From: Gammaproteobacteria bacterium
GTDB taxonomy: Bacteria; Pseudomonadota; Gammaproteobacteria; Steroidobacterales; Steroidobacteraceae
DNA length: 64,000 bases
Direction: 5' to 3'
Assembly (NCBI GenBank): GCA_020029535.1
Contig: JAIBJM010000006.1
Span: 1-64,000 of the forward strand
The position numbers were made by a program, and so were the translations under genes. Within the stretch, counting starts at the first letter, position 1. Each line of letters begins with the position of its first letter. The notes under the pieces are model-generated. The model worked only from the letters and a program-made list of their open reading frames with translations. It ran no database searches and was not told the DNA's origin. Below, one piece after another: positions 1,307-8,480 of the stretch.

Positions 1307-1511
1307 ATGAAGAAAACGGCGGCGACAGCCGCGCTCGCGCCGCTGAGCCTGGCAGACTTTCCGGGCGCGGGATCGCGTCCGTGTAACCGGAAACCCGGGA
1401 CGCAACGTTCCCCACATCATGTATCTGCGGGCGCTCGATCGTCCATCGGATGGCCTGCGCTACGAGCAGGTGGGCAGCACACCCCGGATTCAGCGGACTG
1501 AGCGCGAATAG
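1307..1511 (+). pseudogene. Remnant of a secreted DUF6152-like protein
   Basis: A good ribosome-binding site (AGGAGG) precedes an ATG at 1307 whose first residues look like a signal peptide (MKKTAATAALAPLSLA). That frame then degenerates. A different frame, open from 1347 to a TAG at 1509-1511, encodes RDRVRVTGNPGR followed by YLRALDRPSDG. This resembles the C-terminus of DUF6152 proteins, of which an intact member lies at 22508-22918. The two pieces together look like one gene with an internal deletion and frameshift. Its stop codon lies a few bases inside the repeat that begins at 1504. Confidence 0.45.
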
Positions 1512-1725
1512 GAAGTCCAAACCACCGTCGCTCGGTCTGCTCCACTTGGAGTTTCGCAGATCGAGCCTTATGTCCGGCCGCAGGGTATCGTCGATGAGCG
1601 GCGCCGATCAATTGAAGGTTGCGAAACATTGCCTGCGACCTATCGAATCCTCCCAGCAGCAGCGTTTAATCCCGCATGGACGCAGCCCCGCCCGGCCCGC
1701 GGCGTGAATCAGCGGGCTATGGTCA
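1504..1725 (-). repeat. Left copy of ~222 bp direct repeat with oriIS-like end
   Basis: This segment recurs at 8260-8480 in the same orientation, about 90% identical by eye with one single-base indel. The first 62 bases are identical, the centre is diverged, and the last ~60 are nearly identical. Read on the minus strand, the end at 1504 finishes in TTTGGACTTCCTATTCGC. This resembles the oriIS end of ISCR/IS91 elements as I remember it (TTTGAACTTCCTATACGG). A 6-bp hairpin (GCCCGC at 1695-1700 with GCGGGC at 1712-1717) sits near the inner end in both copies. An nhaA fragment starts directly at its right edge. Confidence 0.85.
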
Positions 1726-2372
1726 GCGAGTTGCTGGTGAGCGGCCTGGATGTGGTGATGGTGCTGGGTCTGCAGCGGATAGGTGTGGGCTCGGCCTGGT
1801 TCTATGTGCTGCCCGGTGCCGTGCTGTGGTTTGGATTGCTGCGGACCGGTGTGCATCCCGCGCTGGCCGGCGTGGTGCTTGGCTTCATGACGCCAGTGCA
1901 TGCCATGGGAAGCCGCGAGCTACGCGCGCTGCCCGCGCCGGTGGTGCGCGTACAACAGGCTCTGCATCGCTGGGTTGCCTACGGCATCATGCCGCTGTTT
2001 GCATTGGCCAATGCCGGCGTGACGCTGGGCGGCGGCAGTCTTGCCGGTGCCGATAGCCTGGCCGTATTGCTGGGCGCAACGCTCGGGCTGCTGATCGGCA
2101 AGCCACTGGGCATCTTCGCTGTAACCTGGCTGGTGGTGCGCGTGGGCTGGTGCCTGCTGCCGCCCGGTGTGTCCTGGGCCGGCGTGCTGTTGATGGGCCT
2201 GCTCGGCGGCATCGGCTTCACCATGGCCATCTTCATCGCCAATCTGGCCTTCGCCGACGGGACACTGCTGGTGGCCGCCAAGACCGGCGTCTTGCTGGGA
2301 TCGGCACTGGCCGGCGTCGCGGGTCTGCTGTTCGGCCTGGCGTTCACCCGGAGCAAAGCGAGCGCTCCGTGA
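1719..2372 (+). pseudogene. 3' part of a second Na+/H+ antiporter NhaA
   Basis: About 215 residues matching the C-terminal part of NhaA ([50 protein letters not shown]). It is clearly paralogous to the intact copy at 59301-60464. The N-terminal ~185 residues, including the double aspartate of the ion site (present as IIDDIAAV in the intact copy), are missing. Homology begins right at the inner edge of the repeat, so the truncation coincides with the repeat junction. An in-frame ATG at 1719 could start translation, but the product could not be a working antiporter. Confidence 0.85.
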
Positions 2373-2448
2373 GCCAATGATCGGGGTACCCGGTTTTCCG
2401 CGGAATCGTGTCTATGCTATACCGGGATGAGCTAACGGGGCGCTTGTC

Positions 2449-2988
2449 TTGACGAATCCAGGGAAGATCAAGTCAGCCAGCTTCGTGATGAACCTTGCCA
2501 CGGAACACGGCCATGATCTGGTGCGGTTCATTGCCAAGCGGATGCGCTCCTCTGCGGATGCCTGCGATATTGCACAGGAGACCTACATCCGGCTGCTGAG
2601 GCTGGATCGCAAGGATCTTATCCGCGATCCGCGTCCTTACTTGTATCGCATCGCGGCAAACCTGCTTTACGAAGCGGAGCTCAGACGCAGGGCCGATGCC
2701 AGCGGAATGGCGCGGCTGGCTGCTGACGCCGAGACTGATGCCGGTGCCGGGTATGAAGAGAACGGGCCGGAAATGGCAGAGCTGCGGGACCGGCTGGCGC
2801 GCGCACTGGAGGGATTGTCGCCGAAGTGTCGCGCGGTTCTGTTGCTGCATCGGCGGGAGCAGATGACATATGACGAGATCGGCGCAGTGCTGGGCATTTC
2901 GAGTGCGATGGTGAAGAAGTACCTCGCGCAGGGACTTAAACACTGCCGCGAGAAATTGCAGGACCTTGGCGGATATGACCGTGATTGA
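2449..2988 (+). CDS. ECF-type RNA polymerase sigma factor, FecI-like
   Basis: About 179 residues with sigma region 2 (residues ~20-85, DACDIAQETYIRLLR and PRPYLYRIAANLL) and region 4 (~115-170, LSPKCRAVLLLHRREQMTYDEIG, then a helix-turn-helix ISSAMVKKYLAQGL). This is the FecI group of extracytoplasmic function sigma factors, normally released by a signal passing from an outer-membrane receptor through a FecR protein. The longest start is TTG at 2449; an ATG at 2488 is an alternative. It overlaps the fecR-like gene by 23 bases, which implies translational coupling. It probably drives the receptor gene downstream. Confidence 0.92.
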   Translation: MTNPGKIKSASFVMNLATEHGHDLVRFIAKRMRSSADACDIAQETYIRLLRLDRKDLIRDPRPYLYRIAANLLYEAELRRRADASGMARLAADAETDAGAGYEENGPEMAELRDRLARALEGLSPKCRAVLLLHRREQMTYDEIGAVLGISSAMVKKYLAQGLKHCREKLQDLGGYDRD

Positions 2989-6716: not shown

Positions 6717-6749
6717 CCGACAGACAGGTGAGAAACCGGGAGAACGCCG

Positions 6750-8258
6750 ATGGATGACGAGCACAACGGCGATAACGCTCCTGTCCGGCGGCATAAAAGG
6801 TCCCTTCTGGTTCGGCGCACGCTCCTGAAAGGAGCGGCTGCCGGGCTCGCAGCGGGAACGCTGGCGAACTCCGGGCTGGCCAGGACAGCTCTGGCGAATG
6901 ACTTCGCCGACGACAAGGGCAGAAAAATCGACGGGCGGCGCATCCTCCTCAGAGGAGGGACGATTTTGTCGATGGACCCCGACGTCGGCAATGCCATCAA
7001 AGCCGATCTGCTGATTGACGGCAAGAAAATCGCCGGCATCGGTCCGGGTCTGAGCTCCCGTGGCGCCACGGTCATCGATGCTCACGGAACCATCCTCGTT
7101 CCCGGCTTCGTCGAGACCCACCGCCACTGCTGGCAGAACACGTTCCGGCGCGCTATTCCCAACGCCAGACTGCTGAGCGACTATGCGGCGCTGACGCACA
7201 GAGGTGTAGGGCTGTTCAGCCGCCCGCAGGACCATTACGCCGGAAGTCTCATCAGTGGTCTGAGTGCCATGCATTGCGGCATCACGTCGATGCTTGATTT
7301 TTCACACAACTCGCGCACTGCTGCTCACGTCGATGCCGCGATCAAAGCCCATCTCGACAGCGGTCTGAGGGCGGTCTTTGCCTATGGTCCTGCCAGTTTC
7401 GGAACCTGGGACAGGCAATGGCCGCAGGACATAGTCCGCGTGAAGAATAAATTCTTCCGGTCGGAAGATCAGCTGGTCTCGCTTCGCCTCGCGACACCAC
7501 TCGACGCGGAAAATTTTGCCCTGGCCCGAAGTGCAGGGGTCAAGATCACCTCTGACTTTCCGACAAACGTGAATCTGATACTCGACCTGGCCAGACAGGG
7601 CGTGCTCGGACCAGATGTAACATTCATTCACTGCACGGCGCTTCCGGACAGTGTCTTTCAGGCAATGAAGGACCACGGCGTCCGGCTTGCGCTCGCTCCA
7701 ACGTCGGACGCGCACTATCGAGGCTTGGGCGATAGCGTCGCACCTGTCCAGAAGGGGCTCGATTTCAACATTCCAATGGGTCTGAGCGTAGATGCTGAAG
7801 TAAGCCTCAGTCCTGACATGTTCTCGCAGATGCGGCAGACGTTTTATACCCAGCGCATGCTGGCAAACCAGCGTTTTGCCGCGGGCGATACGAACGCGCC
7901 CGTCGAGATGTCACCGCGCCAAATTCTCGAGATGGCGACCTTGGGCGGTGCGATGTGCAACGGGCTGGAAAGCAGGGTCGGCTCGCTTGCGCCAGGCAAG
8001 GAAGCGGACATTCTGATGGTCGAAGCCGACGACATCTTGAACATGCCGCTCAACAATGCCTATGGCACTGTCGTCCTTGGCGCCGACAACGGCAGCATTC
8101 GTAACGTCTTCATCGCGGGCCGGCTGGTGAAATGGAATGGCAGGCTGGTCGGCGTCGATATCGATGCAGTACGCAAGCTTGTCTACGCGTCCCGCGATTA
8201 CCTGGCGGCGCAGACGCAACTCTGGAAGCCCGACTATATTGTTGATGGCGCCATGTGA
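6750..8258 (+). CDS. Tat-exported amidohydrolase-family protein
   Basis: 502 residues. The N-terminus has a twin-arginine export signal (VRRTLLKGAAAGLAAG). The body is an ATZ/TRZ-like amidohydrolase: a beta-sandwich start, then HxH at residues 124/126 (VETHRHCWQN), a His at 294 (FIHCTALPD) and an Asp at 348 (GLSVDAEVSLSPDMF), ending in ADILMVEADD. The His-x-x-Glu normally found on strand beta5 is replaced by KITSDFPT, so the metal site is incomplete or different. It lies 33 bases after the receptor and is probably co-transcribed. It may process the imported ligand in the periplasm, or it may be a binding protein. Confidence 0.85.
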   Translation: MDDEHNGDNAPVRRHKRSLLVRRTLLKGAAAGLAAGTLANSGLARTALANDFADDKGRKIDGRRILLRGGTILSMDPDVGNAIKADLLIDGKKIAGIGPGLSSRGATVIDAHGTILVPGFVETHRHCWQNTFRRAIPNARLLSDYAALTHRGVGLFSRPQDHYAGSLISGLSAMHCGITSMLDFSHNSRTAAHVDAAIKAHLDSGLRAVFAYGPASFGTWDRQWPQDIVRVKNKFFRSEDQLVSLRLATPLDAENFALARSAGVKITSDFPTNVNLILDLARQGVLGPDVTFIHCTALPDSVFQAMKDHGVRLALAPTSDAHYRGLGDSVAPVQKGLDFNIPMGLSVDAEVSLSPDMFSQMRQTFYTQRMLANQRFAAGDTNAPVEMSPRQILEMATLGGAMCNGLESRVGSLAPGKEADILMVEADDILNMPLNNAYGTVVLGADNGSIRNVFIAGRLVKWNGRLVGVDIDAVRKLVYASRDYLAAQTQLWKPDYIVDGAM

Positions 8259-8259
8259 G

Positions 8260-8480
8260 GCGAATAGGAAGTCCAAACCACCGTCGCTCGGTCTGCTCCA
8301 CTTGGAGTTTCGCAGATCGAGTCTTATGTCCTGCCGCAGGGTAGCGTCGGTGAGCGACAACGATCAACTGGAAGCCGCCAGCATTGCCTGCGGCCTGTCG
8401 AATCTTCCCAGCGGCAGCGTTTAATCCCGCATGGACGCAGCCCCGCCCTGCCCGCGACGTGAATCAGCGGGCTGCGGTCA
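8260..8480 (-). repeat. Right copy of the ~222 bp direct repeat (oriIS-like end)
   Basis: Second copy of the segment at 1504-1725, one base shorter, beginning two bases after the amidohydrolase stop codon. On the minus strand it lies just downstream of the transposase remnant, the position where oriIS sits in IS91-family elements. The outermost bases are TTTGGACTTCCTATTCGC on the minus strand. The GCCCGC/GCGGGC hairpin is conserved. CTCA follows the presumed end within one base in both copies, but this is not the GAAC/CAAG target described for IS91. Confidence 0.85.

Follow-up and report, generated by a model that had tools for sequence, protein, structure and literature searches.

Decayed ISCR-like end repeats around a fecIR/TonB-receptor/amidohydrolase block within an accessory island of a Steroidobacteraceae genome

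The window analyzed here is a stretch of 64,000 nucleotides at the start of contig JAIBJM010000006.1 of a Steroidobacteraceae genome (assembly GCA_020029535.1), and the features in question are two short repeats that flank a block of four genes, encoding a FecI-like sigma factor, a FecR-like regulator, a TonB-dependent receptor and an amidohydrolase, between rsgA and recR (Table 1). The repeats are direct, lie on the same strand and are 89% identical by BLAST alignment, close to the ~90% estimated by eye in a preliminary description of this DNA. A repeat search recovers them as two direct pairs, 1504-1614/8260-8370 (93%, spacing 6756) and 1627-1732/8382-8487 (91%, spacing 6755). The initial 62 bp are identical between the left and right copies, and both terminate on the minus strand in TTTGGACTTCCTATTCGC, as had been described. 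Only one base (8259) separates the amidohydrolase stop from the right copy, and the left copy adjoins a C-terminal nhaA fragment (Pfam Na_H_antiport_1 positions 174-372), so that the earlier placement of the repeats at gene junctions holds for these two borders. However, what flanks the left copy on the other side is a 3'-terminal piece of a DUF6152 gene, rather than the rest of nhaA, and a TAG within the repeat tip closes the frame of that fragment.

The right copy is continuous with a transposase remnant, the existence of which had been proposed previously and is borne out by a Pfam Y2_Tnp match of 52.7 bits (cut-off 20.9), of which the C-terminal part alone remains. Among NCBIfam models ISCR_clade_Ia is the best match, at 156 bits vs. 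22.7 for IS91, both being under the cut-offs set for full-length proteins (925 for ISCR_clade_Ia). The remnant shares ~50% identity, in two frames, with residues 283-479 of the Acinetobacter plasmid transposase WP_043907034, and nothing before residue 283 of that protein was matched at E 1e-3. Together, the right copy and remnant align over ~790 bases at 75% with a transposase-bearing copy on contig C91; in the window homology stops at ~9089, and the remaining transposase-bearing matches either break off early or reach a contig end. Immediately downstream of the transposase stop comes the repeat, the tip of which, GCGAATAGGAAGTCCAAACCACC, resembles the corresponding sequence of the plasmid ISCR-type element near its transposase, GGGTATAGGAAGTTCAACCGCC, which is itself close to the ISCR/IS91 ori end given in the preliminary description. 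Given this continuity with transposase sequence and the likeness of the tips, the repeats are, as judged from sequence, ori-side ends, non-coding, of an ISCR-like element; the right copy represents an element that has been truncated, and the left copy is a solo end. By the same evidence they would belong to the known ISCR/IS91-type kind of element, with the core CTTCCTAT on the element strand as in ISCR and an end region of 229 bp here vs. 232 bp in ISCR1 (PMC6218425). The variable cargo of ISCR1 is described as sitting on the ori side (PMC6218425), and the four-gene block likewise lies on the ori side of the right copy. Unlike ISCR, the N-terminal part of the transposase is missing in the copies where it is visible, many ends are solo, the contexts look chromosomal, and the neighboring genes look catabolic and transport-related.

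Other element types were also considered. A composite transposon with two complete IS copies was rejected, the left copy being a 229-bp solo end and the right truncated. No inverted repeat pair of ≥40 nt, such as the terminal inverted repeats of a MITE, was found in positions 1-12000 of the window. No sigma-70-like promoter was found in 1400-9300 (0 sites, vs. 1.6 in shuffled sequence), and outward promoters of the ISCR1 kind are thus unsupported here.

Table 1. Features of the rsgA-recR region, and the intact nhaA gene, in the window
Feature	Position	Strand	Basis or remark
Genome-specific insertion, rsgA (ends 641) to recR (stop at 11247)	642-11246	.	rsgA and recR abut in relatives
DUF6152 gene, 3' fragment	1352-1504	+	93% over 153 bp to intact gene on contig C1 (L032:2169-2636)
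Left repeat copy	1504-1732	+	Predicted solo ori-side end, ISCR-like; ori tip at 1504; element 3' end on minus strand
Second nhaA, C-terminal fragment	1733-2372	+	At right end of left repeat; 77% DNA identity to intact nhaA
ECF sigma factor (FecI-like)	2449-2988	+	Profile match
FecR-like regulator (DUF4880 + FecR)	2966-4063	+	Profile match
TonB-dependent receptor with N-terminal STN signaling domain	4167-6716	+	Profile match
Amidohydrolase	6750-8258	+	Profile match
Right repeat copy	8260-8487	+	Predicted ori-side non-coding end, continuous with transposase remnant
ISCR-clade transposase remnant, 5'-truncated, frame-broken	8492-9089	-	Pfam, NCBIfam, plasmid transposase comparison
FkbH-domain HAD protein	9252-11096	-	FkbH 141.9 bits (cut-off 146.65); HAD-SF-IIIC above cut-off; within genome-specific insertion
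Intact nhaA	59304-60464	-	Same contig

The repeat recurs across the assembly (2.87 Mb in 120 contigs, completeness 95%), where 25 matches were found with E from 6e-116 to 3e-4, a similarity beyond chance. Six lie on C48, four on C18, two each on C75, C91, C82, C1 and C95, and one each on C97, C37, C32, C13 and C67; a further weak match on C18, the fifth there (L028:6776-6855), falls outside this count. The tip motif is recognizable by eye in 15 of the 25, and the far ends vary. In four of these 15 the tip lies 0-2 bases from a same-strand stop codon, namely in the right window copy (W8260) and in copies on C97, C82 (gpmA) and C91 (queG). Different genes stand beside different copies, a point that the preliminary description had proposed to check, and those between or beside them include an aldehyde dehydrogenase, an acyl-CoA ligase-type enzyme, a Rieske protein, NmrA, an RPE65-type oxygenase, an IS110 transposase, a DUF5615 PIN-like gene and an EamA transporter. 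When the genome was searched with Pfam, Y2_Tnp was found only at C91, C82, C95 and C62, the C82 and C62 genes not being beside repeats; these last (L065, L066) are further ISCR/IS91-type transposase genes or fragments with ~75% mutual identity over 402 bases.

Four tips placed directly at stop codons, together with a weak terminator-like hairpin that a scan detects at both window tips, could suggest that the repeats are not insertion sequences at all, being instead terminator-like elements or structured RNAs retained at the 3' ends of genes. However, 5 of the 25 copies run into transposase sequence, the copies are clustered and many are truncated, and a known structured RNA was rejected for the window (0 Rfam matches in 600-11300; DNA fold z-score only -1.58), all of which make this reading very improbable.

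Outside this genome the repeat was found in none of 59 other relatives, with as many as 13 candidates scored per genome. A DNA scan of the class found matches in 27 of 369 genomes, this one included; in the other 26 all listed matches (at most two candidates scored per genome) start at query position 304 or beyond, in the transposase-coding part. In a plasmid DNA search 3664 records match, and the 20 listed among them do so at transposase positions only, annotated as IS91 family transposase. A 20-base tip pattern had no exact match in viral contigs, a search blind to more divergent tips. Among the papers listed in the literature search, no title or opening abstract lines described this ISCR-like repeat family.

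Relatives of the same genus provide two informative empty sites, rsgA-recR and queG-panC. At the first, the gap between rsgA and recR is -4 to 51 bp in all 11 loci fetched (three of the 14 other genus genomes gave no rsgA match), compared with 10.6 kb in the window. The absence from relatives that the preliminary description had proposed to test is thus seen, but the extra DNA is the whole of 642-11246 rather than 1504-8259; because the entire interval is extra, the repeats are not the edges of the insertion and were rejected as its exact ends. A single event linking the 1504-8259 block to both repeats is unsupported, although the block may have traveled as one unit between the two copies. The block is accessory in the genus: searched at E 1e-20, 13 of 14 genus relatives lacked a match to the amidohydrolase, and the remaining genome (G006) gave one of 139 residues at 37% identity. 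In the same 14 no match was found to FkbH (E 1e-30), to the nhaA fragment at 1733-2372 (E 1e-15) or to the N-terminal half of the intact nhaA. At the second site, panC loci from 12 relatives were compared, nine of which hold queG and three of which do not (two of these being short); the queG-panC gap is -20 to 66 bp in eight of the nine and 612 bp in the ninth. In the genome studied here the same interval contains a solo end, the EamA transporter and a transposase-bearing copy ending ~45 bp before panC, with the two copies in the same orientation bracketing the genome-specific insertion and the degenerate tip of the solo end covering the queG stop. Of the loci examined, this one fits the idea of capture most cleanly. 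For gpmA, the tested neighbor genes were not found within 1.5-kb flanks in relatives, so that no empty-site comparison was available, and the C1 flanking gene had a match in one of 14 relatives, at 28% identity.

These observations bear on whether the repeats had any part in building the islands, as the latter may have arisen by ordinary horizontal transfer and recombination, with ISCR-like elements simply inserting and decaying in tolerant regions and the fecIR block owing them nothing. The rsgA-recR island does extend past the repeats on both sides, with no repeat match at either the rsgA or the recR edge, transposase sequence is clear in few copies, and bodies have diverged by 9-34% even within groups of copies with like tips. 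Nevertheless, the queG-panC insertion consists, save for ~45 bp, of two copies and the DNA between them, and the identical tip shared by the window pair (48 of 48 positions) differs from that of other aligned copies (at most 0.77 to any of 12). Of the 13 neighboring pairs of copies that lie within 8 kb, 11 are co-oriented (binomial 0.011; counting the C82 pair as one split copy, 10 of 12 and 0.019). On this evidence we regard a purely passive role for the repeats as rather unlikely, if well worth retaining.

Alternatively, dispersed old ISCR ends may have served as patches of homology at which crossovers joined, deleted and duplicated segments, leaving mixed tips and bodies, and gene fragments, as scars. 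By eye, 18 tips were sorted into six groups, all carried on one shared body; two of the groups are loose (T3, tip identity 0.71; T5, 0.63). In 16 of the 24 pairs formed within groups the tips are more alike than the bodies, for example 0.96 vs. 0.70 for C97/C32 and 1.00 vs. 0.87 for the window pair (W1504/W8260), and bodies over positions 51-120 are nearly as alike between groups (0.824) as within them (0.848). In two clear cases the right end of a solo copy adjoins a 3' gene fragment, nhaA at 1733 and a kef-type antiporter tail on C97, the latter matching, at 80% over ~55 bases, the intact gene that lies 1.7 kb upstream. A comparable conclusion was reached for most IS801 fragments in the genome of Pseudomonas syringae, which were judged products of rearrangement (PMC3189936). 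However, tips are no more alike than bodies in the other eight pairs, and tips beside the stops of resident genes (queG, gpmA) are unexplained by recombination alone. Further, the N-terminal half of the broken nhaA was not found elsewhere in the assembly, the search matching only the intact gene at 59 kb. Selection on tips could also keep tips alike; in the window pair, the excess of tip over body identity could be due to gene conversion or to selection for recognition of the tip by a single transposase. Recombination as the principal author of the islands appears unlikely. Scars like those of rolling-circle capture would also result from crossovers among old copies or from separate insertions.

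Taken together, the data are consistent with a model, which we hold with moderate confidence, in which the repeats are relics of a diverse and mostly decayed chromosomal family of ISCR-like elements whose insertions, capture and recombination helped to build islands. The copies are clustered, as 13 neighboring pairs fall within 8 kb, whereas 20,000 random placements gave 1.6 on average and never more than 8; this test treats the genome as one line and uses a distance limit picked after the data were seen. A relic would usually keep part of the ori end, as a variable tip on a shared body, and a few would keep a piece of transposase. It is proposed that rolling-circle insertion, along the lines of the general model set out in PMC5714925, laid down these ori ends, the tip in some cases coming to lie beside a gene's 3' end, as is observed. 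Such insertions, repeated at convergent-gene junctions that tolerate them and probably accompanied by one-ended capture, may have helped to assemble accessory islands; some insertion events may have carried cargo, and recombination between copies may later have reshaped the result. The 10.6-kb rsgA-recR island with its fecIR/TonB-receptor/amidohydrolase block would be one such island. Were a rolling circle to start at the left tip, it would proceed rightwards across the block and could stop on reaching the next tip, thereby freeing the block together with one end, although no trace of such a release was seen. In a further scenario, which seems distinctly doubtful, short ori-end units (~100-229 bp, their tips interchangeable) would have been mobilized in trans to act as module boundaries, building cassette-like catabolic and transport islands at convergent junctions without an integron.

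Transposase sequence is clear in only five of the 25 copies (W8260, C91, C75, C48 and one on C82), and a sixth copy, on C48, stops ~ten bases into transposase sequence; the repeat thus largely occurs across the genome away from IS91-type neighbors, an outcome that the preliminary description had counted against its own reading. Several observations weigh against the model proposed here. No intact element was found among the copies, and no ter end was identified, no search aimed at ter sequences having been made. The orientation bias of neighboring copies is modest, and the window copies, although mutual best matches over positions 121-228 (0.898), are over positions 49-228 no closer (0.867) than some copies on other contigs. 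A fixed tetranucleotide beside the ori tip (GAAC/CAAG type) is known for IS801 and also for IS91, and no such rule is known for ISCR; unlike IS801, the bases beside the 15 recognizable tips share no tetranucleotide by eye, and no target rule was found. The rolling-circle capture first proposed for this locus is supported by the ori ends, the accessory amidohydrolase, the different genes beside other copies and the bracketing at queG-panC, but the repeats do not bound the insertion, the right transposase has lost its N-terminal part, and the left copy has no transposase at all.

Precedents exist for short mobile ends and for catabolic cargo. Right-end pieces of IS801 of 229, 360 and 679 nt are mobile and retain the ori end (PMC3189936), and the short pieces described here similarly keep theirs. 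Metaldehyde-degradation genes are accompanied by a truncated IS91-type element and short end repeats, for which one-ended capture was proposed (PMC9676059), and the present repeats resemble those loci in standing, with a truncated element, beside catabolic genes. However, the metaldehyde case concerns an A. calcoaceticus plasmid with sequences near-identical among Acinetobacter strains (PMC9676059), whereas the copies here are old, diverged and in one genome. According to a 2026 paper, the mechanism of ISCR transposition is to date without experimental proof (PMC13393415).

ISCR elements are credited with the spread of resistance genes. A genome carrying ~25 ISCR-like ends in several gene clusters, two of them with readable empty sites in relatives, provides a natural record of the behavior of such elements outside clinics and makes the ISCR capture model testable by comparative genomics.

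Some further features of the window and of other copies may be added. Third-position GC of the block (0.69-0.71) is slightly below that of rsgA, recR and dnaX (0.76-0.80), which hints at, without proving, a foreign origin. Relatives of the amidohydrolase in named genomes occur at three loci, with 43-48% identity; by tblastn the other three block genes were absent from the ten amidohydrolase loci tested, seven of which are shorter than 4.5 kb. The interval 642-1300, between rsgA and the DUF6152 remnant, appears degenerate, and a frame at 694-1116 within it has no Pfam match. At L027:4665-5305 a transposase-bearing copy adjoins a 78-aa open fragment with no NCBIfam match, which we take to be ORF6N-like. 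At L030:364-4130 the order is a Kef-type antiporter (by reading of its open reading frame), small genes including the DUF5615 PIN-like gene, the stop of which lies one base from the repeat tip, the repeat, and the copy of the antiporter's 3' tail. The DUF6152 gene occurs twice near repeat copies, broken in the window and intact on contig C1.

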